Shown here: positions 6,950-29,313 of the stretch, piece after piece
How positions within the stretch are numbered: the first letter of the stretch is position 1
How the letters are laid out: each line of letters starts with the position of its first letter
Virus record (IMG/VR): IMGVR_UViG_3300037096_000012
Span: 1-30,463 of that record
Direction: 5' to 3' (one strand)
From: a virus
DNA length: 30,463 bases
Notes under the pieces: model-generated
What the model saw: the letters and a program-made list of their open reading frames with translations, nothing else
Database searches by the model: none
Told to the model about the DNA's origin: nothing
Program-made: the position numbers and the translations under genes

Positions 6950-6981
6950 ATAATTTACTAAACCGTCCGAGCCGATTAATA

Positions 6982-9198: not shown

Positions 9199-10803
9199 CT
9201 AGAGAACGTGAACCAATAAATTACAGCCACACAGGGGATGGGCTGTGGGCTGATCGTCGCCACTCGGAAAATCTTCGTCTATGTCGATGACCCCGGCCAG
9301 TTGATTTTCAATGCAAATAACACAGGCCCCCGGTTCCGTCTCCCAACTCTTCCCTGTCGCTCCCGCTTCCCGTCCGAAATGAGAAATGCTCTCGTTGAAC
9401 GCATTGTTCAACTCAGTCCTGGCGATCATCTTCGCCCGCACCGTCGAAGCGTCTGCGAATGAATCCTTAACTGCCTGGACGATGCCGTCATAGTCCGCGC
9501 CTGATTCGTAGGCATCGGCTACCGCGCTGGCCAGCCGATCCACGGTGGTTTTGTCGATCTCCCCGGTGAGTTGCGAGAATCCCGAATCCTTCAGGTATTC
9601 GGCTATGAAGGATTCGGTATCCGCCGCTGTGCTGTTCATCATCGTTGCGGCCTGAGATGCGCCGTTTTCAATGGAGGCTTTTATTGCGCCAGTGAAGATG
9701 TCGTTTTCAGCCTGAGTCACAGGAACGGTGTAGATGTGCGTGCTGATGGCGGATGCGATCTCCGCTTCCAGCCGCGCGCGGTCCGGGTCTTCAGCTTCCC
9801 GCAGGGCTTCCGATGCCGCGATGCCTTCGTTCCAATCAGTCTCACCGTGTTGAGCGAAGTACTGGCCATCGGCGGCGCTATATGCGGGTTCCAGGCCTCG
9901 CCACGTCAGTACGAACAAATCCCCCGGCTTTGAGAAATCTGAATTACTTACAAGCTCGTCTTTGTCGATGCCGCGAAAGTTCAGCAACGCCGCCGCGTGG
10001 ATGATGTGCAGTGCCCTCCCGCTGGTGATGTTCAGAACGCGGGCGCCGGGCTTCAGGGAATCACGCTGCGCCACGGTTCCAGCGATCAGCCGTGCTGCTA
10101 CTTCGTTGAATGAATCCCCCTCTTTGCCGCTGTACCGACTGATGCCGGGCCGTTCGTCCGGTGTTTCAGTTACCAGCCGGTTGATGCAGTCCCGTGCCCC
10201 ATCCAGCGTCATGCCCTCGTACTTCCCGACGCCCCACGGTCGCAGCCATTCCGCGTCTTGCGCGTTCGCGTTGATGATCGATCCGGTTTCCCGGCTGCGC
10301 GAGGTCGGGGCTGTGAAGACTTCGATATCTCCAACGCGCTGCTTCAGTTCGTGCGCTTGCTTCCGGCCCGCGTCTGTCAGTGGAGCGTCTACAGAGCCGG
10401 TTACTCGCCGTACAGACTGGCTTTCACTCCCTGAATCTGATTGAGCCTCACGATGAGAAGATCGGCCCGGTCCCGCGTGAGTCTCACGTACCACTCCGGA
10501 TCGGTTCCCATCCGGTAGGGGTGTTCGATTGCCAGGGCTTCCTGAACCGGCATTCTCACTGACTGCGGGTACGATATTTGAACTACGACCTGTTCGGTTA
10601 AGGGTGACATGCAAGCTCCTGAGTGCGTGTGAGTCGATAACGGATTTTCGTTGTGCACGGAAGCGATCGCGGGCCAGTTTCTGAATCTTGCGCGACGGCC
10701 CGGCGATGGCTTTATCGCGGCGTTGCTGGACCGTTGGAGCCTTCGCTTCGAGGAGATCGGCTACGACAGTTGCTGCTTCGATGAGTTCGGACTCGATGCT
10801 CAT
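9199..10803 (-). CDS. Minor head protein (Mu gpF/SPP1 gp7-like) with histidine-phosphatase-like insertion
   Basis: A 534-residue protein. The N-terminus (1-65) is helical and basic. Residues 450-534 match the Mu gpF-type head morphogenesis domain: RAKMIARTELNNAFN, CVIC, then HPLCGC. Residues about 135-325 resemble a histidine phosphatase: DAPLTDAGRKQA, TAPTSRSRETGSII, LRPWGVGKYEG, GDSFNEVAARL and VLNITSGRALHII. The RHGET-like motif that normally opens this fold appears at the end instead, as QHGETDWNEG (318-327), suggesting circular permutation; the expected Arg is Gln and the second His is Ser, so activity is doubtful. Residues 66-135 are a Ser/Gly/Arg-rich linker overlapped by another frame (10401-10610). 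ATG at 10803 overlaps the KTSC gene stop (ATGA). Confidence 0.8.
   Translation of the reverse strand: MSIESELIEAATVVADLLEAKAPTVQQRRDKAIAGPSRKIQKLARDRFRAQRKSVIDSHALRSLHVTLNRTGRSSNIVPAVSENAGSGSPGNRTPLPDGNRSGVVRETHAGPGRSSHREAQSDSGSESQSVRRVTGSVDAPLTDAGRKQAHELKQRVGDIEVFTAPTSRSRETGSIINANAQDAEWLRPWGVGKYEGMTLDGARDCINRLVTETPDERPGISRYSGKEGDSFNEVAARLIAGTVAQRDSLKPGARVLNITSGRALHIIHAAALLNFRGIDKDELVSNSDFSKPGDLFVLTWRGLEPAYSAADGQYFAQHGETDWNEGIAASEALREAEDPDRARLEAEIASAISTHIYTVPVTQAENDIFTGAIKASIENGASQAATMMNSTAADTESFIAEYLKDSGFSQLTGEIDKTTVDRLASAVADAYESGADYDGIVQAVKDSFADASTVRAKMIARTELNNAFNESISHFGREAGATGKSWETEPGACVICIENQLAGVIDIDEDFPSGDDQPTAHPLCGCNLLVHVL
10401..10610 (-). CDS. Possible nested gene, 69-residue hypothetical protein
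   Basis: This frame lies wholly inside the minor head gene in another reading frame. It begins MSPLTEQVVVQISYP and contains EHPYRMGTDPEWYVRLTRD. AGGAG lies five bases before its ATG, a near-ideal ribosome-binding site. By hand inspection its third codon positions look more GC-rich than those of the enclosing frame, whose translation here is low-complexity Ser/Gly/Arg. It could be a true overprinted gene, or mark a pair of compensating frameshifts. It resembles no family I know. Confidence 0.5.
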   Translation of the reverse strand: MSPLTEQVVVQISYPQSVRMPVQEALAIEHPYRMGTDPEWYVRLTRDRADLLIVRLNQIQGVKASLYGE

Positions 10804-11240
10804 ACCTTGAACACCAGCACCGCAGCCTCGGATTCCCAATTCACGAGCGGGCCGTGCGCTTTCGGGTTGTAGACCGTGCCGCACTTCGGACACGTAAACG
10901 GCGAGAGGTTATCCAGATTGCCAGATAGCGAAGCTTTGTTCAGGTGTTTGCCACAACATCCGTCTGCCTGAGTCGTGTGCATCGGCTTGCCTGCGTAGAT
11001 TCTCGCATCCAGCGTGTCGCAAAGGTCTTTCGATGAACGCTTCAGAACCACACCAGCCCGCAGCGCCACCAGTCCCTGAATCGCTTTACCCTTTGATGGT
11101 GCGGCCATCAGGTCTTCATATTGCTGCTGCGTGACGCCGGGGTATTCGTACTCTGAGCCGTTGCGGAAGCGCACAGTGAGTGTGTTGTCGGCGTATCCGA
11201 TCGCAGCGACATTGGAGGATTCGACTGGTTTCATTTCCAT
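10800..11240 (-). CDS. KTSC-domain protein with C-terminal zinc-binding part
   Basis: A 146-residue protein. Residues about 7-60 fit the KTSC domain: SSNVAAIGY, LTVRFRNGSEYEY, a V-T/P position, YEDLMAAPSKGK. The second half has cysteines in GCCGKH and TCPKCGTVYN, a likely zinc ribbon. KTSC domains occur in many phages next to structural genes and their role is not well defined. The start follows TGGTAAAG closely and an alternative ATG lies two codons later (11234). Its TGA overlaps the ATG of the minor head gene. Confidence 0.75.
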   Translation of the reverse strand: MEMKPVESSNVAAIGYADNTLTVRFRNGSEYEYPGVTQQQYEDLMAAPSKGKAIQGLVALRAGVVLKRSSKDLCDTLDARIYAGKPMHTTQADGCCGKHLNKASLSGNLDNLSPFTCPKCGTVYNPKAHGPLVNWESEAAVLVFKV

Positions 11241-11442: not shown

Positions 11443-11455
11443 ACTTTACCACGCT
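11443..11455 (-). promoter_or_regulatory. 13-bp start-proximal motif, copy 2
   Basis: The minus strand reads AGCGTGGTAAAGT, identical to copy 1. It overlaps the portal stop codon and ends six bases before the ATG at 11436. Confidence 0.45.
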
Positions 11456-13475
11456 ACGCCGCTTTTGCGCGTTCTTCCTTCCACTTCGTAAACGCTTCCG
11501 CCAGGCGCTCGATCGCCGCTTCCATCGTTGGCGTCCCGCCTGGAGGTTGCGCCTTCAGTGTCGGCCCGATTGGCTTGCCGGTCTTAGGGTCTATCTGCGT
11601 TCCTCCGCCCGGCGTGGGCTGCGCTTTCTGCACTGGGTCCGCAATCTTCTGGTCAGCCCGGTTTGCGTTGTATTCGTCTTCCGGGTATTGATCTTCTGTT
11701 AACTCATCGGCTTTGTCCATGCCGAGGAGTTCGTACAGGTGCCGCACTCCAGCCTTTTCGTCGATGCCTGTTACCTGACCGCCCTTGTTCGCCAGCGTCA
11801 TTGCTTCCACGGTCGCGGTCACGAGTGCCGGGATGTCACCTTCACGGATCTCGGGGAATGTGACGGTGATCTCCATGACTTCGGGGTCTTTGTCTTTCGC
11901 TTCTACGTAGCGCCAATCGCCGCGCGCGTTGCGGACACGCTTCGCTTCGCGGATGTCGATTATCTTCAGGTCCAGTTCGCGCGCCACCATCGCTTCGCGT
12001 ACTTTGCCGTTGGGCGCCCGCAACGAATTGCGCAGAGCGCGGGTGACGATCACACACAGATCCTCCCGCCACTCCTCCTGGATCGATTTGAACCCAACTT
12101 CCGTGGGACGGTCCAGCGTTGTGGCCGTCGCCAGATTGCCCGTGCTCACATCTGCGAGAAAAGTTTCCGGCACTCCCTTAACCATGCAGCACATCAGCTT
12201 GTACTGTCTGACTTCTTCCGGGTCGCCGCCCTCACCTGAAGATTTGAACGCCGCCAGTTGCGTGCCAGGGCCGGATGCAAACATCGAGCCGGATACCGCG
12301 GTTGGGTTCTGCTCGTACCACGAACTGTTCCCCGTGGCCACCGTCGATTGTAATTGCTGCTTGACGCCTTCAAGGGCCTGCTGTCCGCCCTTCGTCGTAA
12401 TTGTCATGGCGATCTGAGCCAGAGCCGCTTTGACGGCTGCGCAGTGCTCCAGGAATCTCCGGGCCGCTTTCGCCCAATCGAGCATCGGGTAAATCCGTGG
12501 ACAGCCGAACAGCCACTTGCCGACCGTTCCCACCTTGCGATGATACACCGGGTTGTCCCACAGGACATCAGATCCGTTTATCGTGGTGACCTTCTCTGCG
12601 CCCGTGGGCTCATAGCCCAGCGCCGGGTACCAGGCGCAACGTCCGACGGTCTGGAACAGGCCCGATTGCGTAACGAAGGTTTTTTCAAACCACTGCCTCT
12701 TGTAGAACCACGGCGAAGCGGCGTCATCCGGATCGGTGACGATCTCCTGAATCTCGGTAGCGTCGATTGTCCGCACGTCGGTATCGCCGGTGTCCTGATC
12801 GCCGAAGAAACAAAAGAATAGATTGCCGTCGTAGTCTTTGCGCCGCTCCATGTCGGTCAGCGCGGCTTGCCCCAGTGTTTTATTGTTGCGGTCCATGAAC
12901 GCTTTGATCGCGGCGTTTACGTCCGGGTCCGGGCTGCTGATCTCGACGCCGCGGCCGAACACATAGACCGCGCACACGTCCACCAGCCGCCTCACGATGG
13001 GGTTCTTGATGTAGTACAGCCGGGATAGCAGAATGATTTGCTGGATTCCCCAGCGCGAGAACTCCAGCCAGCCGAAATTGATCTCGCGCCGCCACTCCCA
13101 GTTATTCAGTTCCAGTTCGAACAGGCCGTTCGCTCCCTGGGCATTGGCAAACGATTCCCGCGTGCGGATGCCGGCTGCGCTCGCTTTCGCCATTCCGCCA
13201 GGCTTAGCAGCTTCTCCAAACGTCATCGGCCCGAGCCACGGACCAGAGCCCCCCATTAGAGAGGCTTCCTGCAGCTCGCCCATGAATTCGAATACTTCGC
13301 GCTGGCGCATGTCATCGGCGGTTTGTTTCGCCGCAAGTTCGGACACCAGTGAGCGAACCACGGGTAGGAGATCCGGTGTTCGTTGGGGATCGGGAAGCGA
13401 GAGCGTTTGAATCTTATCGGAGGCGAGAGCGCGGATGATCCGCTGGCCGGTTTCGTGGAGGATGGATCGGATCAT
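11454..13475 (-). CDS. Portal protein
   Basis: A 673-residue portal protein, which forms the dodecameric DNA channel at one vertex. Typical features are NPIVRRLVDVCAVYVFGRG (about 157-175), a Trp- and Tyr-rich stem and clip region, and MVKGVPETFLADVSTGN with ATATTLDRPTE, a portal-like sequence ahead of the C-terminal helices. The C-terminus is Pro/Gly-rich and ends with a charged helix. Gene order (after terminase, before the minor head protein) agrees, although the glycan island intervenes. The ATG follows a TATAAT box by eight bases with no Shine-Dalgarno sequence, suggesting a leaderless mRNA. Confidence 0.88.
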   Translation of the reverse strand: MIRSILHETGQRIIRALASDKIQTLSLPDPQRTPDLLPVVRSLVSELAAKQTADDMRQREVFEFMGELQEASLMGGSGPWLGPMTFGEAAKPGGMAKASAAGIRTRESFANAQGANGLFELELNNWEWRREINFGWLEFSRWGIQQIILLSRLYYIKNPIVRRLVDVCAVYVFGRGVEISSPDPDVNAAIKAFMDRNNKTLGQAALTDMERRKDYDGNLFFCFFGDQDTGDTDVRTIDATEIQEIVTDPDDAASPWFYKRQWFEKTFVTQSGLFQTVGRCAWYPALGYEPTGAEKVTTINGSDVLWDNPVYHRKVGTVGKWLFGCPRIYPMLDWAKAARRFLEHCAAVKAALAQIAMTITTKGGQQALEGVKQQLQSTVATGNSSWYEQNPTAVSGSMFASGPGTQLAAFKSSGEGGDPEEVRQYKLMCCMVKGVPETFLADVSTGNLATATTLDRPTEVGFKSIQEEWREDLCVIVTRALRNSLRAPNGKVREAMVARELDLKIIDIREAKRVRNARGDWRYVEAKDKDPEVMEITVTFPEIREGDIPALVTATVEAMTLANKGGQVTGIDEKAGVRHLYELLGMDKADELTEDQYPEDEYNANRADQKIADPVQKAQPTPGGGTQIDPKTGKPIGPTLKAQPPGGTPTMEAAIERLAEAFTKWKEERAKAA

Positions 13476-14597: not shown

Positions 14598-15308
14598 CTA
14601 AAGGGGTCGCAGCTCCAGCGGGCCACCGTGGCGGAACTTCGAATCCGCCGGGAATTTGTCTCCGATGACGATGTGCCGGTATTCATCCTCCGCTTTGTTT
14701 GCCGGGTCTTTTTCCTGGTACCAGCGATACTTGCGGAGCCGGTCTTCGCGGTGCAGATAGCCGTAATGCAGCAGCCCCACGCCGCCGTGTGAACGCGCCG
14801 TGATCGATTGCGGGCAGTTGCCACAGTGGAAGTTGACGCCGCCTGTGGCTTCGAATCGCTCCGGGCCGGGGCGGAAAGCCGATACCCGGCTCATGCTGCG
14901 ATAAACGCCATCCACGCGGATCTGATCTTCGCGGTCCCACAGGTAGAGAACGTTGAAGGCGAGCGCACGACAGCCGCCGGGATGCCGCATGGCGCGGCCC
15001 ATCACGGATAGCAGCCGTTGGGCGTGGCCCGGCTTCAGAACCTCGTCGCCGTCGATCATCACCACCCAATCCGCTTTCGCTTCGATGCACGCGCCCAGCA
15101 GATAATTCTTGTCGCGAACCTCGTCGGTGCCAGTGAACGGCGACAGCAACACGGTCACGCTTCTGATTTCGGCTGCAATGCTGGCCGTGTCGTCTGTCGA
15201 GTGGTCATCGAAGACGATAACCTCGTCGCACGCGGGCAGGATCGATTCGATCGATCGCTGAATCCACCGTGATTCATCTTTAACACGCAGAGCTCCAATG
15301 ACTCGCAT
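14598..15308 (-). CDS. Family 2 glycosyltransferase
   Basis: A 236-residue GT-A enzyme, expected to move a sugar from a nucleotide sugar. It shows the GT2 pattern: an N-terminal strand, SIESILPACDEVIVFDDHSTDD (the nucleotide-binding part, about 21-42), then DWVVMIDGDEVL, where DGD is the metal-binding DxD motif (about 86-88). The C-terminal half has HCGNC and several aromatic residues. It is the last gene of the island; its ATG overlaps the previous stop by one base (TGATG). The acceptor is unknown: host glycan, virion protein or DNA are all open. Confidence 0.85.
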   Translation of the reverse strand: MRVIGALRVKDESRWIQRSIESILPACDEVIVFDDHSTDDTASIAAEIRSVTVLLSPFTGTDEVRDKNYLLGACIEAKADWVVMIDGDEVLKPGHAQRLLSVMGRAMRHPGGCRALAFNVLYLWDREDQIRVDGVYRSMSRVSAFRPGPERFEATGGVNFHCGNCPQSITARSHGGVGLLHYGYLHREDRLRKYRWYQEKDPANKAEDEYRHIVIGDKFPADSKFRHGGPLELRPL

Positions 15309-16138
15309 CAGCGCAGCCTCCAGTCGTAGCCGCCATCCCCGACGATCTCCCGAAGTTTATCGACCCGCCGCGCGATCCGTTGCCGTTCCTCGCGGTACTG
15401 CACATTCGGTTCTTTGTCTTTCCACGCCGCGTGCCAGCCGAACTTCGCGAGCGGAGAAGCGTAGATGTCTGGGTAATGTGGAATCGAGTTGTACTTCAGT
15501 CCGGTTTGCCATGCGGCGACCGGGAAGGAAAGCTGGTCGCGTCCGCAGCCCGCCGAGTATAGACTCCACCATGCTTCGCACGTCCGCTTCACGATCTCCG
15601 CGTGCCGGCGGATCATGATCCCGTTTGCGGTCAGTCCGTTGATCGCCGGGTATTCGGCATCGCGGTAGCTTTGCGCTTCGGCTTCGACCGCATCCGGGCT
15701 CAGTCCAGGCCATTCCGCCGGCCTTTCGCGCGATGCCTTCGCCAGCAGTTCCGCTTCTTTGTACACGCAGTCGCGGGCCGGGTGACGATGCGCGGCCCAG
15801 TCGTCGAAGCGCAGTTCCGTGTTGACGATCTCGCTGGCTGGTTTGCGAAGCTGAAAGTTTCCGTCGAGCCAGATCGAGTAATCGCAGTCCTCCGGCAGCA
15901 TCAGGTGCGGGAGGATCTTCGGGAGGCGTGAGGTGCGGGAGGCGTCCAGCGTTCCGTGGCCGAATCCCTGAAGATCGTCCTTCTCGATTCGATGAATCGG
16001 CCGAAATTCCCACGGCGCGACATTCGGCAGCACCGGAACGTCAGTGAAGCAGATGAAGCGTGTACCCGGCTCCGAGGGCACCAGCGGAGGGAGAAGGTTG
16101 TCGAAGCCGCCGAGGATGCAGGTGTAGACATAGATCAT
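15308..16138 (-). CDS. DUF616/TOD1-like glycosyltransferase
   Basis: A 276-residue protein beginning MIYVYTCILGGFDNL. The start, then FICFTDVP, DASRTSRLPKILPHL and DYSIWLDGNFQL, is the motif order of the DUF616 (TOD1/MUCI70) glycosyltransferase-like family, in which the LDGN segment takes the place of DxD. The C-terminal part contains NGIMIRRH and RDQLSFPVAAW, common in related GT8-like enzymes. ATG 16138 overlaps the TGA of the previous gene; an in-frame start at 16324 would overlap that gene by nearly 190 bp and reads as low-complexity basic sequence. Confidence 0.8.
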   Translation of the reverse strand: MIYVYTCILGGFDNLLPPLVPSEPGTRFICFTDVPVLPNVAPWEFRPIHRIEKDDLQGFGHGTLDASRTSRLPKILPHLMLPEDCDYSIWLDGNFQLRKPASEIVNTELRFDDWAAHRHPARDCVYKEAELLAKASRERPAEWPGLSPDAVEAEAQSYRDAEYPAINGLTANGIMIRRHAEIVKRTCEAWWSLYSAGCGRDQLSFPVAAWQTGLKYNSIPHYPDIYASPLAKFGWHAAWKDKEPNVQYREERQRIARRVDKLREIVGDGGYDWRLR

Positions 16139-16827
16139 CGGTTCACGTAGTCCTTTGCCAGATATCGGATACCGCCTTTGAAGTGCAGAATGCGGGCTTC
16201 TGGAGGTGGCGGGAAGTGCCAGCAATTCCACTCCATCGCGTCGAGGATAAGTACGCGGGCCCCTGCATACCCAACTACAATAGTTCCGCGCGCAGTGTTC
16301 CATTCCGTGCCGCCTCGGTGCCATCCCGTGGCTTGATTCAGCGCTCCCTGATCAGTATGAAATGCTCGCGACAGGACACCCCAGTGTTGGCAGAAATCGC
16401 GGCCCTTCATCGTGTTCCTGATCCAGACTACTCCGCTGTTCAGGTAGTCGAGCGCCGGGTTATTGCTGAGTCCGATCTCGGGAGCCGGGCGAAGCGTGAC
16501 AGCTGCATCCGCCGGGTTTTTGTCCGCCATAGAAAGTGGCTGAAACTTTTGAACGGGGATGCAGTCGGCATCAAGCCAGCAGACCGTTTCCCCGGGATAC
16601 GCAGCTTGCAGAGCCTCCATCACCAGTGCGGCTTTGAATGTGGCGGGTGGCAGGCTGTCTCCGTTCACAGTGGGCTTCAGGTCAGAGGCCGGGACTTGGT
16701 ACGGTATCCCGATGCCGAGGCCGCCAAGGTCGTAGATTCGATGCTCATAGCCGAACTCTCGGCACTTGCGCGCCTGAGCTTCGATGATGGGCTTGTATTC
16801 GGCGGTTCCGGCGGTGACGACGATCAC
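16135..16827 (-). CDS. GT-A glycosyltransferase-like protein
   Basis: A 230-residue protein starting with GTG 16827, which overlaps the upstream stop as GTGA. The N-terminal IVVTAGTAEYKPIIEAQA and VCWLDADCIPVQ (DAD is the DxD motif) mark a nucleotide-sugar binding fold. LDYLNSGVVWIRNT and FHTDQGALNQA resemble the donor- and acceptor-side motifs of GT8-like enzymes. It ends with HFKGGIRY. It is embedded between the PIG-L-like deacetylase and the DUF616 gene, so it likely acts on the same glycan. Confidence 0.75.
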   Translation of the reverse strand: MIVVTAGTAEYKPIIEAQARKCREFGYEHRIYDLGGLGIGIPYQVPASDLKPTVNGDSLPPATFKAALVMEALQAAYPGETVCWLDADCIPVQKFQPLSMADKNPADAAVTLRPAPEIGLSNNPALDYLNSGVVWIRNTMKGRDFCQHWGVLSRAFHTDQGALNQATGWHRGGTEWNTARGTIVVGYAGARVLILDAMEWNCWHFPPPPEARILHFKGGIRYLAKDYVNR

Positions 16828-17447
16828 AGCGAGTACACCCCGCACGTGGCTTGCGGCTCCCAGCTCCAGGTCCAGCATCCCCGCGCATCGTAGATAGCCT
16901 TGATGCGGTCGAAGAGCGGGCGGTCGATCTCGTATGTGTAATTGCCGAGCGCGATGCTACCCATTTGATCCCACGTGTGGACGTGCGGCTTCCCCTGCTC
17001 CCACGCGAGTATCGGGACCCATGCCGGGCTCTCGGTTACCGCAATGTCCGTCACCAGCAGTTGACCGCCGTGCCGCGCTTGATGCGTGCGGGCGATGTGA
17101 TGGCACAGCAGATGGTCGATGTGCCCGTACTCTCCCCAGGCGTTGTGTGTGGCGACAATCTCCGCGCCTTCGAGTGTGCGCAGCAGATCGGAAACGATGA
17201 GATGAAGTGCGCCGTTTCGCGTCGGGACGCGGTAGAATTCGCTGTTGTTCCATTGGCAGACGATTTCGCATCCGAGCAACTTGCCCACTTCCGCCAGGCA
17301 TAGCCCGCGCTCTTTGCAGAACGTGCGCTCCGGGTTGAAGGCGTCATTCGAGGCGCACACGATCCGCTTCACGCGGCTTAAAAACGGCCATAGGAATATG
17401 GCCTCGTCGTCGGGGTGCGCGATGAGCAACGTGACGTCGCGCGTCAT
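16824..17447 (-). CDS. PIG-L/LmbE-family deacetylase
   Basis: A 207-residue member of the family of zinc-dependent de-N-acetylases that act on GlcNAc-type sugars. AHPDDE (residues 10-15) gives the first metal ligands (His11, Asp14) and the general base Asp13; HNAWGEYGHIDH (101-112) carries the third ligand, expected at His112. The start at ATG 17447 has GAAGGT upstream and overlaps the stop of the previous gene (ATGA). A longer frame from 17657 reads as Arg/Pro-rich non-coding sequence. Its presence among glycosyltransferases suggests that it trims an acetylated amino sugar in the assembled glycan. Confidence 0.88.
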   Translation of the reverse strand: MTRDVTLLIAHPDDEAIFLWPFLSRVKRIVCASNDAFNPERTFCKERGLCLAEVGKLLGCEIVCQWNNSEFYRVPTRNGALHLIVSDLLRTLEGAEIVATHNAWGEYGHIDHLLCHHIARTHQARHGGQLLVTDIAVTESPAWVPILAWEQGKPHVHTWDQMGSIALGNYTYEIDRPLFDRIKAIYDARGCWTWSWEPQATCGVYSL

Positions 17448-18367
17448 GAAACCTTCTTTCCATAATGTCGAGCCACTGAAGCGTGCCCCATGTGGAGTAT
17501 CGCCTCGTCCCCCACTCCGATGTGTCTTTCGCAGACACAGAACTGAGGAGGGAGCGGCAACGGGGTTACACCTGTAAATTTCATCGCTTCCCACCACGCC
17601 AGGGGACCGCGTTGCGGAGTTTGCAGGATGATCCGGCAGTACTCTTCGGCGAGCCACACGGAACGCTTAGAACCCAGATTGATAGCCACCGGGGAACAGT
17701 TAAACGAAGGCCCGTACCACGTCGTCTGGTCGATGCAAGCCGGAGTATCGGCACCATCGACGAAGTCCCGCTTCACGACGTATCGCGGATTTATCGGCAT
17801 GCAGATGCCAAACGTCATCGCGAGAGGGACGATCTGGCGCGCGGCATCGCGATCTCTGATCCACATATCGGCGTCGAAGCTGATCGCAACATCAGATCCC
17901 GAGTCAAGACATTTTCTGATCTTCCCCCAATCGTTCATGCGCCAGCCATAGCGCGGGTGCGCCGGGTCGAGTCGCGGCGTCTCTGGCAGGTCGTTTCCGC
18001 CGAATACCTGAATATCCGCTTCGGGCCAGCACTCCCGATATTGCGAAACGTCTGGCGCTGCCTTGCCGTACTCTGCGATCACGATTGCTATTCGAGGTGA
18101 CGCCATTTTTTCCCCATTATGATATTCCCAACCTGCTGCTCGGTGACCGGCGACCATCATCTCCGCACCTGTTACGGGGTGTCGCTCTCCCTCTGGGCCG
18201 TCCATGTTCGGTTTCCCGAGGTATCCAATGTCATGTACAAAGAACGCCACCCATAGACGCGGATCGAACGGGAAACCGTAGAGTTTCCACCACGCCAGAG
18301 CGACAAACCACGGATGCATAAAAAAACAGTGCGCCCCGAACAGAACTGACTTTGTACCTACCTTCAA
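17444..18367 (-). CDS. Fusion of an HD-like domain and a glycosyltransferase-like domain
   Basis: A 307-residue protein. Residues 1-85 look like a phage HD-type hydrolase: HPWFVALAWWKLYG, FVHDIGYLGKPNMDG and ERHPVTGAEM contain the HD pair and a later His, but the C-terminal half that normally supplies the last Asp is missing. After NGEK the sequence changes to a glycosyltransferase-like part starting MASPRIAIVIAEY, with AISFDADMWI (DxD) and a C-terminal domain with NCSPVAINLG. The join lies at a run of six A residues. TTG 18367 has GGGGGTG upstream and overlaps the upstream stop (TTGA). An internal start at ATG 18106 could give the glycosyltransferase alone. Confidence 0.7.
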   Translation of the reverse strand: MKVGTKSVLFGAHCFFMHPWFVALAWWKLYGFPFDPRLWVAFFVHDIGYLGKPNMDGPEGERHPVTGAEMMVAGHRAAGWEYHNGEKMASPRIAIVIAEYGKAAPDVSQYRECWPEADIQVFGGNDLPETPRLDPAHPRYGWRMNDWGKIRKCLDSGSDVAISFDADMWIRDRDAARQIVPLAMTFGICMPINPRYVVKRDFVDGADTPACIDQTTWYGPSFNCSPVAINLGSKRSVWLAEEYCRIILQTPQRGPLAWWEAMKFTGVTPLPLPPQFCVCERHIGVGDEAILHMGHASVARHYGKKVS

Positions 18368-19143
18368 CTGATCACCCCCAACTCTCTCAGACCTTTCAAG
18401 TAGCTCCAAGGTGCCCCGCCAGTGCGATGCAGGAACCCTCTCTCAGCCTCTATTGCCCACTGGCTCACCCGGTAGTACTCGCTCAGATACCCGACCTCCA
18501 TACCGTGCGCGTTCATAAACTGCCGTAACGGCTCTCCCAGCGCGTTCCAGGCGCTCAGTGCGTCCATACCCTGCGGAGTATCGGTTTGGCCTGTCCTGTC
18601 CAGCCCTGTTTCCGCCAGCGGTATCCTGCCACCCAGCATGCGGATTAGTTCCAGCCGGAATATCTCGAATGAGCCGCGGGCGTAACCCTTCGGTGCTTCC
18701 GGGTAGCGGCCATTCGTCCATAGAAGCGTGTTCGGTTCGCGGGCACAAAGGTCGCGGATCATCGGGAACAGATCCCGCCGCCGGATGTAGGTGTCATCGT
18801 GCAGGAAAAGGATGGCTTCGTATTCGATCAGCGGGCTGTCCATGTACTCCAGCCACTGATTCAGAAATCCCCAATCGCCGATTGTGTTCGCCGCTTCGTG
18901 GTAGTCCCATCCGAGGTGCCGCAGATCGGAAACGCTTATCGAATCGTCGTATAGTTCCCGGTCCAGATCAGCCATCGGCGCTTCCAGATCGTCAAGGATG
19001 TTTTTTTCCTCATAGACGGCTGGATCATCCGGGCTTCGGTGCCCGATGCAAAACAGGTCCACGTCCGCATCCGCTTGCGCGGCTAGTGCACGGAAAAGCG
19101 AGAGAGGATAATGCCAGCCGCCCACACAAACCGCTATTCTCAC
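18364..19143 (-). CDS. Glycosyltransferase-like protein
   Basis: A 259-residue protein beginning MRIAVCVGGWHYPLSLFRAL. A Rossmann-like first half leads to EAILFLHDDTYIRRRDLF, where HDDT looks like the DxD-type metal site of GT-A enzymes. Later motifs include GYARGSFEIFRLELIRMLG. The ATG overlaps the previous stop and its own stop overlaps a TTG start, placing it firmly in the island operon. The family is not recognised exactly; assignment rests on the DD motif and neighbours. Confidence 0.65.
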   Translation of the reverse strand: MRIAVCVGGWHYPLSLFRALAAQADADVDLFCIGHRSPDDPAVYEEKNILDDLEAPMADLDRELYDDSISVSDLRHLGWDYHEAANTIGDWGFLNQWLEYMDSPLIEYEAILFLHDDTYIRRRDLFPMIRDLCAREPNTLLWTNGRYPEAPKGYARGSFEIFRLELIRMLGGRIPLAETGLDRTGQTDTPQGMDALSAWNALGEPLRQFMNAHGMEVGYLSEYYRVSQWAIEAERGFLHRTGGAPWSYLKGLRELGVIS

Positions 19144-19589
19144 GGTCGCGCCTCAATCCTGAAGTCCCTGGCTGGTACGTGGTACTGAGCGGGCTTCAGT
19201 TCCTGCCGGGTGAATCCGCAAAAGGAAAGCAACTCAGAAAGCGATTGCGGCGAGTATGACCACTTGACCATGTGTTGCGGATCGCGCGGCCCCGGATCAC
19301 CGTGAACCCATTCGACCTCGCTGGACGCGATATGAAAGTTCGGCTGCTCCAGGATCAGAACGCCGTCCAAATTCAGCACGAGCCGTATCTGCTTCAGCAG
19401 GGTTTCGCCGTCCCACGGATACAACTGCCCTATGCCGTGGATCAGTTCGATCTCATCCCACAATTGCTCCCGTACTTCGCGCGGCAGCGGTGGCACCAGC
19501 GCAGTGTAATCCGCGCCCGGTTTGCAGTCCAGCGTCTTCCACCCTTCGCGGCGTCCGGTTATCCCGGCCATGACTGATAGGCGGTTCAC
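19140..19589 (-). CDS. SAM-dependent methyltransferase-like protein
   Basis: A 149-residue protein. ITGRREGWKTLD may be a variant motif I, followed by an acidic strand end, EIELIHGIGQLYPWDGETLL, and VLNLDGVLILEQPN, which matches the post-motif-III strand of class I methyltransferases that act late in glycan or small-molecule pathways. The C-terminal SPQSLSELLSFCGFT is also typical. It is short for the fold and lacks a classical GxGxG loop. Start GTG 19589 (AGGTGG upstream, GTGA overlap) is preferred to GTG 19598 or ATG 19571. Confidence 0.65.
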   Translation of the reverse strand: MNRLSVMAGITGRREGWKTLDCKPGADYTALVPPLPREVREQLWDEIELIHGIGQLYPWDGETLLKQIRLVLNLDGVLILEQPNFHIASSEVEWVHGDPGPRDPQHMVKWSYSPQSLSELLSFCGFTRQELKPAQYHVPARDFRIEARP

Positions 19590-19828
19590 TTCGTCCACCT
19601 TTCAATTATCGGAGCCATGAACAGCATCGCAGCGAACAGCCAGCCGAGGATTGCGACCGCGCGCCAGCGCTTCCCGTAAGCGTTCTCTTCCTGCGCCTGG
19701 ATTATCCAGTTCGCCACCGCCATACGGAGTTCCACGATTTCAGTTGCGCGCCATTCCATCCAGTTTTCCTTCACCGGGTCATCGCGCCGGATGTGTGCGG
19801 CCTTCAGGAACTGCTGGTCTGCGGTCAT
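19586..19828 (-). CDS. Small single-pass membrane protein
   Basis: An 80-residue protein beginning MTADQQFLKAAHIRRDD, with one hydrophobic segment near the C-terminus (AVAILGWLFAAMLFMAPII, about 57-75). The charged N-terminal part would face the cytoplasm. AAGG lies nine bases before the ATG within copy 3 of the 13-bp motif. It lies between two island genes and may tether glycan enzymes to the membrane; this is inference. Confidence 0.6.
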   Translation of the reverse strand: MTADQQFLKAAHIRRDDPVKENWMEWRATEIVELRMAVANWIIQAQEENAYGKRWRAVAILGWLFAAMLFMAPIIERWTK

Positions 19829-19836
19829 TGGAATTT

Positions 19837-19849
19837 ACCTTACCACGCT
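19837..19849 (-). promoter_or_regulatory. 13-bp start-proximal motif, copy 3
   Basis: The minus strand reads AGCGTGGTAAGGT, one base different from copies 1 and 2. It lies in the 27-bp gap between the GT2 gene and the 80-residue membrane protein, ending eight bases before that ATG. Here the motif also supplies a possible ribosome-binding sequence. Confidence 0.4.
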
Positions 19850-19855
19850 GTAATG

Positions 19856-20551
19856 CTACTTCGCAACGTGGGCCCACTTCTCCGCAAACGTCGCCGCGCC
19901 ACCCTTGTCGTATCCCGGTCCACCTGGCCCGCGTACCGTGCTGACCAGACTGCCGTGGTCAACATAGCAGCCGTCGTGAACGCCAACCAGAAGCCCGGCG
20001 CGGTTCACGGACTCGCAGTAATCGCGATCTTCGAAGCCACACACGTAGCGTTCATCGAGATAACCGATATCCTCACGGTCGAGTGTTGAGCGAGGGATGA
20101 AAACCGCAACAAAGGCGATGTGTTGAACCAGGCGAAGACCCCACGGCTGCCGGTCCTTATTGCGCGGCATCTGGAGTGGTTGCCCGGTAACGTTCGTCGT
20201 CGCTCCGATGATGGCGAATTCCTTGTGGCACCCGTGCTCCGATTGAAGCAGCGAGAATCCGCCCGGCGACTTCAGGAGCGCGTCGTCGTTGCATAAAATT
20301 ACGTCTGAATCTCCAGCCGCCCTGATACCCATGTTCACATTTCGCGAGAACTGAAACGGCTTCGGCGCTGCTATCGCATTGTCCATCACCGCTCGGACCT
20401 GCTGCGGGTTGATGCCGATGTATTCGTGCCAGTCGATGCCATCATCTACGGTGATGATGCGGACGCCGGGCTCATGCTGCCAGATGGCTGTGACACACGC
20501 CGCGAGATTGACTGCGTTCTTGCTGGGGATGATGACGCTGATTGGGGTCAT
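19856..20551 (-). CDS. Family 2 glycosyltransferase
   Basis: A 231-residue GT2 enzyme. ISVIIPSKNAVNLAACVTAI starts the nucleotide-binding half, RIITVDDGID is the first acidic site, and VILCNDDALL carries the DxD-like motif (about 92-98). The C-terminal GYLDERYVCGFEDRDYC holds the ED motif typical of GT2 acceptor sites. AGAGGT precedes the ATG by four bases, and the ATG overlaps the stop of the 21-codon frame upstream. Donor and acceptor are unknown. Confidence 0.85.
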   Translation of the reverse strand: MTPISVIIPSKNAVNLAACVTAIWQHEPGVRIITVDDGIDWHEYIGINPQQVRAVMDNAIAAPKPFQFSRNVNMGIRAAGDSDVILCNDDALLKSPGGFSLLQSEHGCHKEFAIIGATTNVTGQPLQMPRNKDRQPWGLRLVQHIAFVAVFIPRSTLDREDIGYLDERYVCGFEDRDYCESVNRAGLLVGVHDGCYVDHGSLVSTVRGPGGPGYDKGGAATFAEKWAHVAK

Positions 20552-20613
20552 TGGACCTCTGGCGCTGGCAACGCGAGTTGCGATTCCATGTAAATCGGTT
20601 TCTTTGTCGCCAT
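20548..20613 (-). CDS. Possible 21-residue peptide
   Basis: A very short frame, MATKKPIYMESQLALPAPEV plus one residue. Its ATG overlaps the stop of the methyltransferase gene (TAATG) and its TGA overlaps the start of the GT2 gene (ATGA). GGAGG lies ten bases upstream. It fits the unbroken coupling of the operon, so it may be translated to carry ribosomes to the GT2 start rather than for the peptide itself. Confidence 0.4.
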   Translation of the reverse strand: MATKKPIYMESQLALPAPEVQ

Positions 20614-21149
20614 TACTTCACAGCCTCCAGAACTGCCCGAATCTTCCAAACATGCTCCCCGAATCCCTCGCCCGGCATCGGTCCGAGATCCTTCATTTCC
20701 ACGATCCTGAACGCCGCCGTGATGCCATACGACTTCGATAGCCGCGTGTGTGCGAAGGCTCCATGCTCAAAGTATTTGAACGTTGATCGGCACCACGGAG
20801 AGACGTGGGTCGGGTCTTGCCAGAACCCCACGCCTCGAGATGCGTCCGGGGTTTCGATGGTGGCGCGACCGCCGGGCTTCAGGACGCGGTGCAGTTCGTT
20901 CATGAAGTGAATACGTCCCAGTGGATGCCTTTTTATCGACAATGCATGCGCGCAGTCCGCAATGTGCTCGCAAACGTCCAGCGCCAGCACTTCATCCACG
21001 CTCGAGTTTTCCCACGGCCACGGCCCCGCGAGGTCAACTTGCTGGTAACCGTCTGGCGTGTCGTGTGGCCCACCAACCCACGCATCGGCTATGTCTACGC
21101 CGGTGAACCCGGGTATAACCCGGTCCCCGCAACCCAAATTCAGTTTCAC
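20613..21149 (-). CDS. Class I SAM methyltransferase, type 11-like
   Basis: A 178-residue protein beginning MKLNLGCGDRVIPGF. KLNLGCGD is motif I, GVDI ends the second strand, DLAGPWPWENSSVDEV and LDVCEHI match motifs II-III, and LHRVLKPGGRATIETPD is the conserved region after motif III. This set is common in O- or N-methyltransferases placed among glycan genes. GTG 21149 overlaps the upstream stop (GTGA) with AAAGG eight bases before it; a longer frame to 21560 overlaps the HNH gene and is low-complexity. Confidence 0.85.
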   Translation of the reverse strand: MKLNLGCGDRVIPGFTGVDIADAWVGGPHDTPDGYQQVDLAGPWPWENSSVDEVLALDVCEHIADCAHALSIKRHPLGRIHFMNELHRVLKPGGRATIETPDASRGVGFWQDPTHVSPWCRSTFKYFEHGAFAHTRLSKSYGITAAFRIVEMKDLGPMPGEGFGEHVWKIRAVLEAVK

Positions 21150-21301
21150 CCTTCCCGCCTTTCCTGCGCCGCGTATGAATTTATTACCGCCGTGATCCGG
21201 GCGATCTTCCGCAGGCGCTTCCGCTTGCGAATGGACAGCCCAACGATGATGGCGAATCCCACCACCCAGACAGCGCCGAGACTGATTGCGATTGTAATCA
21301 T
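21146..21301 (-). CDS. 51-residue membrane protein
   Basis: A short protein beginning MITIAISLGAVWVVG with a single helix (about 3-23) followed by a very basic segment (RKRKRLRKIARI), an N-out or cytoplasm-in anchor by the positive-inside rule. AGGAG lies five bases before the ATG, which overlaps the HNH gene stop (ATGA). It is the second small membrane protein in the island. Confidence 0.65.
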   Translation of the reverse strand: MITIAISLGAVWVVGFAIIVGLSIRKRKRLRKIARITAVINSYAAQERREG

Positions 21302-21723
21302 GATTGCTCCTGTTTGAATCGTGCGTAGTGCTCTGCTGCGATGGCCGCGAGGTCCAGATTGTACTTCGCGGCAAACTGTTCTTTGGTGACGACCTTCGTT
21401 CCGGCCCGGCCATCCATCTCCGCGTGGTGCTCGTGACAGAGCGGGATACAGGAATCGTCTGGACCTTTGGAGCTTCGGCCATTGTTCTTGGCTGTGTGCG
21501 CCGGTTCGCATATTCCACCGGCATACCACCGAGCACTTCTTTCGTGCATCCCAGTCGCAAGATTGAGAGCCACGCACGCCACGCAATATTGCGACTTAAG
21601 CCAGTCCATGTAGCACTGGGAGCGTACCACCGATACCCGCCGCGCCGGTCCCGGCCTCTTTGCTTTCGGTCGCTTTCCGCGTGCGATAGGCTTCGTACGT
21701 GGTGGAAGCGGGGAGCGCTTCAT
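21298..21723 (-). CDS. HNH/DUF968-like nuclease
   Basis: A 141-residue protein. A basic N-terminus is followed by YCVACV, CEPAHT, KGPDDSCIPLCHEHHAEMD and a helix. The Cys pairs and HH motif match small HNH-type zinc nucleases of phage (DUF968 or RecA-dependent nuclease-like). It is the odd gene in a glycan island and may be a homing or recombination enzyme carried with the cassette. ATG 21723 overlaps the previous stop as ATGA; in-frame ATGs at 21753 and 21771 lie inside the upstream gene. Confidence 0.75.
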   Translation of the reverse strand: MKRSPLPPRTKPIARGKRPKAKRPGPARRVSVVRSQCYMDWLKSQYCVACVALNLATGMHERSARWYAGGICEPAHTAKNNGRSSKGPDDSCIPLCHEHHAEMDGRAGTKVVTKEQFAAKYNLDLAAIAAEHYARFKQEQS

Positions 21724-22544
21724 CGCATCGCCCCCGCGCAATACGAATCCCATGCCGGAACTCTCTGCCATGCCGGGTTCTTCCGTTTCGATTCAGCCGC
21801 CATCTTGCGGGGATCGTATGCCGTGCTCGTGTTTTGACCGTGAATGCGGGCGATCATGCGCGGCTTTCCGTCACTTGGACACGAGCCGTATTTGTACATG
21901 CCGCGGAACGTCTCGTTTTCCGGCAGCGATGAAATGGTTTCGACTTTGGCCCGCGAGAGAAACTGCAACTCTTCGCCTTGCGACGTTGCGGGAAATGGAT
22001 TGCGACTCCAGAATTCGCGGGTGTAGCAGAGCGTCGTCCCAGGTGGCGCCGGCTTCGGACCGGCTGAGGTGTAGAGCCATGCTTCGCCGGGTTCTTCGCC
22101 ATCCGAACATCCGTCATTCAGTGCGGACGCTGGGATTTCGGATAATGCCAGTTTGCGCGGTTCCCGCCAGAACAGCAGATCACTGAAACCTACGCAATCC
22201 GCGCCAGAGCTTTGCAGCAGCGCAACCTGTTCCGAGAATCTGTTCGCGTGGCTTCGGTCATCGGAGTCGAGGTTGATGATGACCTCGGCTTCGCCCCAAT
22301 CTCCCGCGCACCAGTTGGCCGCGTTGCGAATCCCTCCGATCGTCGCGCCGTTCAGGTCCGGCATCCAAACCGAGGTTGCATCCGGCTGGCCATACGGCAT
22401 GGAGTTGTCCGCGTCCTTCGCGTTGTCGAGAATCAGCAACCGCTTGTTTTCGTAGGTCTGCGCCCTGAAATCTGCAATCGCCTGGTGGGCCATCTCACTG
22501 CGCCCGCACACCGGCATAACGGCGACAACTCGCGGCTGGCTCAT
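21720..22544 (-). CDS. Family 2 glycosyltransferase
   Basis: A 274-residue protein beginning MSQPRVVAVMPVCGRSEM. It has the GT2 layout: AIADFRAQTYENKRLLILDN, GGIRNAANWC and IINLDSDDRSH, where DSDD is the DxD-like motif. The middle contains FSDLLFWREPRK and TLCYTREFWSRNPFP. GGAGG lies four bases before the ATG, which overlaps the stop of the ribbon-helix-helix gene (ATGA). It is the first gene of the glycan island, next to the terminase. Confidence 0.83.
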   Translation of the reverse strand: MSQPRVVAVMPVCGRSEMAHQAIADFRAQTYENKRLLILDNAKDADNSMPYGQPDATSVWMPDLNGATIGGIRNAANWCAGDWGEAEVIINLDSDDRSHANRFSEQVALLQSSGADCVGFSDLLFWREPRKLALSEIPASALNDGCSDGEEPGEAWLYTSAGPKPAPPGTTLCYTREFWSRNPFPATSQGEELQFLSRAKVETISSLPENETFRGMYKYGSCPSDGKPRMIARIHGQNTSTAYDPRKMAAESKRKNPAWQRVPAWDSYCAGAMR

Positions 22545-22798: not shown

Positions 22799-24169
22799 TT
22801 AATACTCTGATATTCGGTACTCTCCAGCCGGGCTGATACCCATCGGGGTCTGGTCGACGTCGATCAGCAACTCTGTGACGGCCCATACCAGCGCGTCCAG
22901 CCTGTCCGGCGATTTCTCGTTGCCTTGCGGGGTCCAGCCGCACATCTGGTCTTCCAGTTCGGGGAATGTGCCGATATGATGCACGCGGCCCTGCTGGTAC
23001 AGGTTGGCGACCGGCTCCGCGCGGATGTACTTGCCCCGGCTGGCCCGCACGCTGCGCACGTTCACATTCGGGTCAATCGCGCGGATATTCCCGGCCACGA
23101 GGTCGCCGCCGTTGTTCACCTCAGCCACGATGAGGTCGGCACGCCGGCTGCGATAGGCCTGGACCGCGATATCGCCCCACTGTCGGGCATCCACTCTGCA
23201 ACTCAGATCGTCCAGAATCAGCACATGCCAGCCCCGGGTGAGAGCCGCCACGATGATGCCTGTTTCGTCGCTGTCGGGGTTGTGCGTCACTGCCGGGTCG
23301 ATTGCCACCACGATCCGCACGATCCCGTCCGAGCGCACGTCTGAGGCGTTGCCGCGGTAGTCGTCTATTACTTTGCGGGTCCAGAGTGCGCCGGGTACGT
23401 CCTCCAGAATCTCCGCAAGAAGTTCCTGCCTGCCGATTCTGGTGCCCTCGTATTTGCTGACAATTGAGTCGAAGAACGCTGGCGCGAGGTTGTCCCGGTT
23501 CTCATGGCTGGCATGGCGCGTGGTGACGGTTCCGGGGTCCGCAATCAAAGTCTTGAGCCATTTCAGCGGCTTCGGCGTCGTGGTGCATATGCCGCGCGTG
23601 TCATCGCCGAGCCGGAAACCGAACATGTGGTTATCCCAGGCCTCATCCAGAAATCTCCACGCGCAAGGCTCATCGGCCCAATACTTTGAACAGAATGGAC
23701 CGCGAAGGCGTTCCGGCTCATCCGCCGAGAACGTCTCTCCGACAGCGCCGGATGGGAACAGGATGCGATGCCGGGTGGGTTCATAGTCAGGGCGACGGTA
23801 CGGCGGGTAACAGGAAAGCAGCCCACTCTTTCCCTCGATCATGACGGAGCGGACGGAACTGGAGGTCGGGCCGATCAGGTGGATTTTCTCTTCTGGCTTC
23901 TCTGCCCACTTCTTGACCGACTCAGCCCCAACGCGGGTCTTACCCCAGCCACGGCCCGCAAGCGGTATCCAGTGAACCCAATCCCGCCGCTGGCTCATTG
24001 CCCCCGGGGTACCGGGCATGAGTTGACCGGGGCGCGCCCAGAAGCGCCAATCCCATCGGAGTGTTTCGAGTTGATCGCTGCTAAGTTTTTGGAGAGCCTT
24101 CAGCCTGTCGGTTTCGCTCAGCGAGGCGAGAAAGCTCGCTGGTGATTGCTTCGAGAGGGTCAACTGCAT
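22799..24169 (-). CDS. terL: Terminase large subunit
   Basis: A 456-residue DNA-packaging motor. The ATPase half has Walker A GRGWGKT (72-78) and a Walker B-like YWADEP (163-168). The nuclease half shows VAIDPAVT with Asp291, a candidate Glu350 in VAEVNN, and DRLDALVWA (422-430) as the last acidic site. The N-terminus SFLASLS and DWRFWARPGQL is typical of this terminase type. The ATG at 24169 overlaps the small-subunit gene by 89 bp, longer than elsewhere here, and no close Shine-Dalgarno sequence is seen, so a later start is possible. Confidence 0.92.
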   Translation of the reverse strand: MQLTLSKQSPASFLASLSETDRLKALQKLSSDQLETLRWDWRFWARPGQLMPGTPGAMSQRRDWVHWIPLAGRGWGKTRVGAESVKKWAEKPEEKIHLIGPTSSSVRSVMIEGKSGLLSCYPPYRRPDYEPTRHRILFPSGAVGETFSADEPERLRGPFCSKYWADEPCAWRFLDEAWDNHMFGFRLGDDTRGICTTTPKPLKWLKTLIADPGTVTTRHASHENRDNLAPAFFDSIVSKYEGTRIGRQELLAEILEDVPGALWTRKVIDDYRGNASDVRSDGIVRIVVAIDPAVTHNPDSDETGIIVAALTRGWHVLILDDLSCRVDARQWGDIAVQAYRSRRADLIVAEVNNGGDLVAGNIRAIDPNVNVRSVRASRGKYIRAEPVANLYQQGRVHHIGTFPELEDQMCGWTPQGNEKSPDRLDALVWAVTELLIDVDQTPMGISPAGEYRISEY

Positions 24170-27669: not shown

Positions 27670-28484
27670 TTGATCACCACCGATTGACCGCGCTCCCCGA
27701 GCCTTGCGCCTGGTACGCCAGTCTGTCCGGTGCCGCCGCACGCTTCGCACTGCATCTCAATCTTTCGGGTTATGGCGACACTGCGATGTGTTGTTACCTT
27801 CATCTGTCCAGATCCTTCACAGAGTCCGCACGGCTTCGCCAGAGCTTCCGCCACAGCGGACCTGCTAACCTCGCGCTTTCCCTGGAGTGTTGCGAATCCG
27901 GCCCTGTACTCTTTGGGAATGACCTGTCCGAACGATGCAGCCAGCACAGCGGCGCGGAACATCGGAGCGGGCATTGTGACGGTGATGCGGCAAAATTCTT
28001 CCGGCACCAGACTTTCGTCGTGGATCTCAACTGGCTGTGCCCCGCCGTTTCCGCGTAGTGTGAAGCTCCCGCGCGCCGATTCAAATTTCCGCGATTCCTT
28101 TGGCTTCCACTCCCCGGCCTGGTCCAGCGCAATCATGCAGGAGCGAATCAGGTCTTTCAGTTTGTCGTAGCGATTCTGCAACACCATCGCGCGGTTGGTT
28201 GCTGCCGCGGCATCCGCTTTGTTGATCGCTACTCCCTGTTCCAGTGCTTTCAGGGGAGCGCGGAGACCGTCCACGTCGCGGAGCTGCTGTGCTACGAATT
28301 GCGTGATGCCGTGCTCGATGGCGGCGAGTTCAGCTCCAGCTTCCTGTTGAAGTGTTTCGTCCTGAACGGTTCCGGCTCTGAATTGCTCTGCTATTGCGAC
28401 ACGTTGCGCGGCTTCTTCCCGCGCTTCCAGAAGCTCGAACAGAACCCCGCCAAGGTTCCATAGTTGATTGGGTTGCGGGGTCAC
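27666..28484 (-). CDS. Gp157-like protein with two DnaJ-type zinc knuckles
   Basis: A 272-residue protein. Residues 10-125 are helical and heptad-like with the helix MVLQNRYDKLKDLIRSCM, as in the siphovirus Gp157 family. Residues 135-180 hold FTLRGNGGAQPVEI and FCRITVTMPAP. The C-terminal part has CGLCEGSG (219-226) and CEACGGTG (246-253), two CxxCxGxG knuckles like those of DnaJ. Gp157 proteins have been linked to phage resistance in streptococci, but the role is not settled. GTG 28484 overlaps the previous stop (GTGA). Confidence 0.65.
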   Translation of the reverse strand: MTPQPNQLWNLGGVLFELLEAREEAAQRVAIAEQFRAGTVQDETLQQEAGAELAAIEHGITQFVAQQLRDVDGLRAPLKALEQGVAINKADAAAATNRAMVLQNRYDKLKDLIRSCMIALDQAGEWKPKESRKFESARGSFTLRGNGGAQPVEIHDESLVPEEFCRITVTMPAPMFRAAVLAASFGQVIPKEYRAGFATLQGKREVSRSAVAEALAKPCGLCEGSGQMKVTTHRSVAITRKIEMQCEACGGTGQTGVPGARLGERGQSVVIK

Positions 28485-29110
28485 TCGACACCCGCCATCT
28501 TCTTCATATCCGCAAGCGCATCTTCGTCCGAATCGTAGAACCGGACTGGGTTGATCTTATAGCCGGGGCATGATGCATCGTAAATCTTCATAGCAGCCAG
28601 ATCCCAGCCAAACCGTTCCTCCAGTTTCTTGCCCGCTTCACCAGCCAGCGTTACCACCCAACCGGCGCGGCAGTGAGTCGTAGCGCAAGCATGGACTTCC
28701 GACATATCCAGCGCCTCTTCCGTCGCCGTCACAGCGGCATAGAGCTTCTGGTGCAGGTTTTCGACTACAGGAACTTCAAGGCGCTGGGACGGTTGCGACT
28801 CGACAGGTGCTGCATCTTTCAAGTCGAAGCAGCCGGAGCAGTCGGAGCAGCCGGAGCAGTCGGAGCAGCGGGAGCAGCGGGAGCAGCCGGAGCAGCGGAA
28901 GCAGCCGGAGCAGCGGGAGCAGCCGAAGCAGCGGGAGCAGTCGGAGCAGCCGGAGCAGTCGGAGCAGCCGGAGCAGTCGGAGCAGTCGGAGCAGTCGGAG
29001 CAGCGGGAGCAGCCGTCCAGACTCGCTAGCGCTCGTCTGGCACCCTCTTCTGATCCCCACCTCTCAATACTGGCGCGGTTTCTGTTTGCGTCTGTAATCC
29101 ACGTTTTCAT
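28481..29110 (-). CDS. Cys-Ser triplet-repeat protein
   Basis: A 209-residue protein. Residues 1-33 (MKTWITDANRNRASIERWG) precede 21 consecutive C-(S/F)-x triplets (34-96), x being mostly Asp, Gly or Arg. Residues about 110-209 form a separate domain with ACATTHCRAGWVVTLAGEAG, FGWDLAAMKIYDAS and FYDSDEDALADM, a module I have seen in phage and bacterial small proteins of unknown role. GGAGG lies seven bases before ATG 29110, which overlaps the upstream stop; a longer frame to 29242 has no support. The repeat could bind metal or form a disulphide-rich rod. Confidence 0.7.
   Translation of the reverse strand: MKTWITDANRNRASIERWGSEEGARRALASLDGCSRCSDCSDCSDCSGCSDCSGCSDCSRCFGCSRCSGCFRCSGCSRCSRCSDCSGCSDCSGCFDLKDAAPVESQPSQRLEVPVVENLHQKLYAAVTATEEALDMSEVHACATTHCRAGWVVTLAGEAGKKLEERFGWDLAAMKIYDASCPGYKINPVRFYDSDEDALADMKKMAGVE
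28823..29011 (-). repeat. 21 tandem 9-bp units in coding sequence
   Basis: Units of the form GAGCAG plus three bases (CCG, TCG or CGG) on the plus strand follow one another without interruption; three units begin AAG or GAA instead. Each encodes one Cys-Ser-x or Cys-Phe-x triplet on the minus strand. Confidence 0.95.
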
Positions 29111-29313
29111 TTCGATTCCTCCCTGAGTGCCAACTGATCGCCCGCCGGCGTCTCCGTGCGCGGTTGCCCTGCGTCTGATCTCTTCTTCCGTGTGCCGGGT
29201 ATCTGGATCAGGCCCCGTACCTCCATAGCGCCGGTTACCCACTGATAGCCAGCGAGAGCTTCGGCGTCTTCCGCGTCCTTGAAAAAGCGTTTCATTTCGT
29301 TGATATCGGCCAT
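29107..29313 (-). CDS. 68-residue hypothetical protein
   Basis: A short protein beginning MADINEMKRFFKDAEDAEAL, with an acidic helix, then VTGAMEVRGLIQIPGTRKK, and a polar C-terminus. The ATG overlaps the ERF gene stop (TAATG), with GGTGG about seven bases upstream. An in-frame ATG at 29373 lies inside the ERF gene. No family is recognised. Confidence 0.55.
   Translation of the reverse strand: MADINEMKRFFKDAEDAEALAGYQWVTGAMEVRGLIQIPGTRKKRSDAGQPRTETPAGDQLALREESK

Follow-up and report, generated by a model that had tools for sequence, protein, structure and literature searches.

Why does a tailed phage keep some 8 kb of sugar-modifying genes within its packaging and head module, and what would their products modify? 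The question is raised by the IMG/VR record IMGVR_UViG_3300037096_000012, a tailed-phage fragment whose entire 30,463 bases form the window analysed here and whose main structural genes all lie on the minus strand, as do all window features given below. The interval between the gene for the terminase large subunit (terL; 22799-24169; PHROG 979, 1e-29) and the portal gene (11454-13475) holds 12 genes and a 51-residue membrane frame, joined by ATGA/GTGA/TTGA-type overlaps or short gaps. This locus (14598-22544) encodes seven GT-A-type glycosyltransferases (GTs), a PIG-L-like deacetylase, two methyltransferases (one full, the other partial), a pair of small membrane proteins and a protein with weak likeness to HNH nucleases. 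Its ends are formed by GT1, a GT2-family enzyme of 236 residues closest to the portal gene (14598-15308; PF00535, 3e-10), and GT7, a GT-A/GT2 enzyme that is the first gene after terL (21720-22544; PF00535, 2.2e-7). An earlier note on this DNA had proposed a glycan-modification island here, with 12 coupled genes plus a micro-frame and about six GTs. The layout was seen again on gene reading and the island is borne out by Pfam, profiles, motifs and the loci of relatives; the GT-A/GT2 type of the enzymes stands, with their count now seven.

Searches of IMG/VR with terL and the portal recovered about a hundred related loci; the window portal shares 38-72% best-segment identity within this clade, cultured portals being distant. 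Across the clade the locus is a fixed address: its two ends are held by GT-A enzymes, and its middle varies. Among distinct loci of sufficient sequence, after manual removal of redundancy, 48/56 have a GT1-type enzyme upstream of the portal gene at a distance of 3.5 kb or less, and 36/42 have a GT7-type enzyme farther upstream, near terL. The gap from terL to the portal spans 5.4 to 9.8 kb wherever terL was recognised. In near-complete relatives 45 of the 51 PF00535 matches are located upstream of the portal at no more than 13.5 kb from it; the number rises to 49 if circular permutation is assumed for four contigs. One relative, L017, has almost the gene order of the window (MT2, GT6, GT4, PIG-L, GT3, TOD1, GT1), and another, L036, has a different subset of the window genes in common with it. 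The portals of L020 and L022 are ~69% identical, and their middle genes differ almost entirely. The comparison of synteny with and without the island, which the earlier note had suggested, thus finds it in nearly all relatives and missing in L067 (portal 52% identical): there the terminase is a different one, which ends at 6952, the portal ORF (open reading frame) starts at 9863, and the 45.8-kb record has no PF00535 match, with an integrase present elsewhere in it. Positions 1-12000 of L067 are thereby a natural counterpart to the island-bearing loci. The notion of ~8 kb inserted into the packaging module and co-transcribed with it holds as to the shared direction with the structural genes; the fixed address across the clade speaks against a private insertion.

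Outside this clade the arrangement was not encountered in the records compared. In the cultured distant relatives LuckyBarnes, Mae-JY09 and Methanoculleus virus L4768 the stretch from terL to portal lacks a GT set, as it does in the uncultured GenBank records Desulfofustis phage LS06-2018-MD02 and ctuI7215. A megablast of the window against phages gave no match. Against 50,697 phage records GT7, GT3 and PIG-L were without a match, and the single match of GT1, to an Enterococcus phage record, was partial.

At this fixed address the content of the locus turns over. The Spearman correlation of pairwise scores with those of the portal is 0.21 for GT1 and 0.18 for GT7, as against 0.80 for the capsid protein and 0.37 for the protease, which indicates exchange or fast change of the end enzymes. 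A Pfam inventory of 139 ORFs from the loci of 15 relatives, in which one member may match several families, counted GT2 27 times, Glyco_tranf_2_4 16, FkbM methyltransferase 11, Methyltransf_24 nine, epimerase five, GDP-mannose dehydratase four, RmlD four, TylF three and DegT aminotransferase once; one HldE-like PHROG match was also seen in the clade loci. By these family assignments, the predicted content of the clade loci is a glycan-building inventory. Three ORFs of relatives' loci match sigma-70 region 2, and hence some loci may carry a transcription factor of their own.

In the two end enzymes, D86/D88/E89 of GT1 are invariant among 41 homologues and D95/D97/D98 of GT7 among 36; for both, Pfam matches, these invariant motifs and confident models concur in a GT-A fold with a DxD-type motif. 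The AlphaFold model of GT7 (predicted local distance difference test, pLDDT, 88.5) has a fold like those of RmlT, TarP and heparosan synthase, and in this resembles chain-building or chain-decorating enzymes. GT1 is closest to peptide/protein glycosyltransferases: to SunS and ThuS by fold and to GmaR by profile. GmaR is its nearest solved enzyme in a profile search (1e-11), SunS/ThuS take ranks 1-6 in a Foldseek search with its model, and a second fold comparison places ThuS at Z 20.9 and SunS at Z 18.9, with the next enzyme at 16.3. It differs from SunS/ThuS in that identity is ~15-19%, the alignment covers the GT-A domain, and GT1 lacks the C-terminal regions that they have. The N-terminal domain of GmaR transfers N-acetylglucosamine to flagellin (PMC9638930). 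Judged from profile and fold, GT1 is likely a protein-priming enzyme.

We consider it probable that the locus is a cassette for virion-protein glycosylation acting in the host cytoplasm. This is the simplest reading, given the nearest folds, the lack of export and base-modification genes where these were searched for, the placement of the locus within the head operon and the precedent of mycobacteriophage Corndog. The locus genes form a single coupled run with those for packaging and head and would probably be expressed late alongside them, and the soluble GT-A enzymes would work in the host cytoplasm. There GT1, encoded next to the portal gene, would most likely attach the first sugar to a particle protein; the remaining GTs may then extend the chain from nucleotide sugars, presumably host-supplied in the window phage, with some relatives apparently also making their own. 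The methyltransferases and the PIG-L-like enzyme could methylate or N-deacetylate these sugars. With the ends kept and the middle exchanged, each phage would acquire a coat glycan of its own, which might perhaps change how the particle adsorbs or is recognised, its surface charge or its resistance to proteases. It is possible, if somewhat short of an even chance, that the clade carries a modular glycan 'serotype' locus, in which the end GTs, one of them protein-priming, frame an exchangeable middle; the main difference among related phages would then lie in the sugar coat of the particle, just as bacteria differ in their O-antigen loci.

Several points weigh against this proposal. That the acceptor is a virion protein is inferred: likeness of fold does not settle what is glycosylated, and for GT1 many other GT-A enzymes have scores not far below those of SunS/ThuS. 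With a probability of 0.7% against the GT1 profile, gp110 of mycobacteriophage Che8 is not a close homologue. The decoupling of GT1 and GT7 from the portal may come in part from paralogues picked up by the profiles. We also considered an S(T/N)G tail at the C-terminus of the capsid protein as a marker of glycosylation and rejected it, as the island-less L043 and L067 have this tail too.

The earlier note had left three targets open: virion proteins, phage DNA and the host surface. Were the host surface the target, the enzymes would remodel a cell-envelope glycan during infection via host lipid-linked intermediates, serving receptor masking or superinfection exclusion. GT2 enzymes, O-methyltransferases and nucleotide-sugar enzymes are indeed typical content of O-antigen and capsule loci, TarP and RmlT, among the nearest folds of GT7, belong to wall teichoic acid glycosylation, and the window locus has two small proteins with a single transmembrane (TM) segment. 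The genes sit, however, in the head module, and the membrane machinery known from phage-borne O-antigen conversion was not seen. The GtrABC systems (e.g. of P22) resemble the clade loci in having phage-borne GTs and differ from them in the GtrA flippase and polytopic GtrC, neither of which was found in the clade loci. GtrA (PF04138) had no match in 32 records, with the control matched in 7/14 genomes, and none of 198 locus ORFs of at least 100 residues, from the loci of 21 relatives, has two or more TM-like segments. With the same script P22 GtrC scores eight segments, GtrB two and GtrA only one, and hence small membrane proteins are under-counted. The window GTs have no TM segment by hydropathy. 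The absence of GtrA and of polytopic locus ORFs makes O-antigen conversion less likely. Moreover, as an integrase occurs in only 5/32 records, most relatives look lytic and would gain little from seroconversion. We therefore regard host-surface modification as unlikely, though it is the foremost of the alternatives.

Virus-encoded GT sets that glycosylate DNA are known (Pyle 2024, as cited in PMC12619734), and a DNA methylase is present in the locus of one relative; GTs acting on modified bases of phage DNA would thus be a further candidate. Yet a thymidylate-synthase-type hydroxymethylase was found in none of 31 near-complete relatives, a set that does not include the window, itself a fragment, in a search whose control matched nine genomes. 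The absence of such base enzymes makes DNA hypermodification less likely. TET/JBP dioxygenases were likewise found in 0/31 relatives, in a search whose positive control stayed silent. Sugar O-methyltransferases and nucleotide-sugar enzymes, together with nearest solved enzymes that are protein or glycan GTs, also point away from DNA, which we hold to be an improbable target. Virion proteins have thus gained among the three targets, through the GmaR profile, the SunS/ThuS folds and the Corndog precedent; phage DNA and the host surface have lost support. A still less probable view is that of a site for miscellaneous cargo (morons) that happens to carry sugar genes belonging to no single pathway. 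Content does differ strongly among relatives, and the genes include HNH, sigma-factor-like and truncated HD ones; but the same two GT families occupy both ends in most relatives with their catalytic residues intact, and GT2 matches are almost confined to the interval from terL to portal.

Between the two end enzymes, a TOD1/MUCI70-type GT lies next to GT1 (15308-16138; PF04765, 3.4e-13; 65% identical in L017, 38% in L036). Farther towards terL are GT3 (16135-16845; 60% in L017), GT4 (start codon ATG at 18106 in the ORF 17444-18367, with a GGGGA of its own; 54% to L017) and GT5 (18364-19143; 45% in L036, where its position corresponds), of which the first two are GT-A-like with a DAD motif and the third GT-A-like with an HDD motif and no Pfam family. 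The class calls of these three rest on DxD-like motifs and conserved neighbours in L017 or L036, GT3 alone having a Pfam match, below threshold (PF03407, 0.022). GT6 (19856-20551) matches PF00535 weakly (0.006); the profile of its 22-member family, however, matches the solved GT-A enzymes chondroitin synthase (1e-10) and WrtF (4e-7). A truncated HD-domain remnant (18116-18367) stands in frame ahead of GT4 and was not found in the relatives' loci. It is 72% identical to the 'bH1327' protein known from Manatee Spring phages, whose annotated gene measures ~640 bases.

The PIG-L-family deacetylase (16824-17447; 60% identical homologue in L017/L104) has both zinc motifs of its family, AHPDDE and H-x-x-H/DH, read here as LLIAHPDDEA and YGHIDH. 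Its PF02585 match (3.3e-6) scores 28.0 bits, narrowly under the curated cut-off of 28.2, and the deacetylase named in the earlier note is upheld on these grounds. Of the two S-adenosylmethionine (SAM) methyltransferases claimed there, MT2 stands as a class I enzyme (20613-21149, GTG start; PF08241, 3.5e-4; PHROG 6636; identity of homologues in the loci of relatives reaches 60%). MT1 (19140-19598; 152 residues; 51% in L036) is methyltransferase-like only in part: it matches the C-terminal part of the PF13489 profile at a marginal E of 0.097, and the glycine-rich SAM motif I is not evident on reading. The two small membrane proteins are confirmed as single-TM frames, one of 80 residues (19586-19828; KD19 2.35; 62% in L022, 40% in L020) and a basic one of 51 residues seen by six-frame reading (21146-21301). 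The HNH-like nuclease, which overlaps GT7 at an ATGA (21298-21723), has homologues in several relatives' loci and matches PHROG 1588 at 3e-10; its HNH assignment is kept as a weak one (PHROG 131, 1.6e-4). Scans of viral contigs with GT5 alone or GT3 alone gave no match, and with PIG-L the L017 contig only, from which these middle genes appear rare.

Some features were noted beside the locus. In three relatives (L005, 8069-10282, and also L006 and L007) terL is interrupted at residue 160 and its two pieces are separated by ~930 bases, as an intron or an inserted element would cause. In the window a Mu F-like head morphogenesis protein (9199-10893) has a histidine-phosphatase domain in its middle, and many relatives align only with its flanks (residues ~1-112 and 363-563), as if this domain were inserted. 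A protein at 28481-29242 contains an extended series of SDCSDCSGCSDCSR-like cysteine repeats and matches no Pfam family. One portal relative (L102, contig 162 of G032) is a 3.9-kb contig of an Acidobacteriia metagenome-assembled genome, the only one among 396 genomes of that phylum; we did not retain Acidobacteriia as the host of the clade, a single such contig being too thin to name it. The paper on Tunturi (Acidobacteriota) viruses gives GTs as scattered genes and does not describe a comparable locus.

If the proposal of virion-protein glycosylation is correct, such glycosylation would be a standing, fast-changing trait of a widespread uncultured clade and not a mycobacteriophage rarity. The clade would then offer a natural series of coat-glycan cassettes and a source of phage-borne protein GTs, and would prompt one to ask which pressure favours coat glycans in the absence of antibodies, with adsorption, grazing, proteases and host recognition as candidates.

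Phage-encoded virion glycosylation is already known as a kind. In Corndog (cluster O), the stretch from portal to protease encodes two GTs together with an O-methyltransferase and a putative N-acetylglucosaminyltransferase (PMC4351075). Glycosylation of Corndog virion proteins has been reported (Freeman 2023 as cited in PMC11600133; also PMC12363180). For Corndog and Che8 (clusters O/F), the same sources and PMC12619734 report glycans on capsid and tail-tube proteins. Given the Corndog gene set and these reports, the earlier statement that there is no described phage system of this sort was too strong. In the literature searched, with most subscription journals outside it, the position, size, end-conserved and middle-variable design and clade-wide persistence of the present locus appear undescribed. 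A more distant likeness, by description only, is that of the chlorovirus PBCV-1, of an unrelated virus realm and host, which encodes a GT set for its own capsid protein and carries out this modification in the cytoplasm, independently of endoplasmic reticulum and Golgi (PMC5408694). As in Corndog, the sugar-modifying genes of the present locus lie inside the head module, coupled and on the strand of the structural genes. They differ from the Corndog/Che8 systems in lying between terL and portal, in comprising seven GTs and a deacetylase, in being clade-wide with an exchanged middle and in being known from genes alone. Che8 gp109 matches GT6 at 89% probability over the N-terminal 42 columns only. 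By analogy, our best reading is that the clade system would work like Corndog/Che8 glycosylation, but with an independent, much larger and clade-wide enzyme set.

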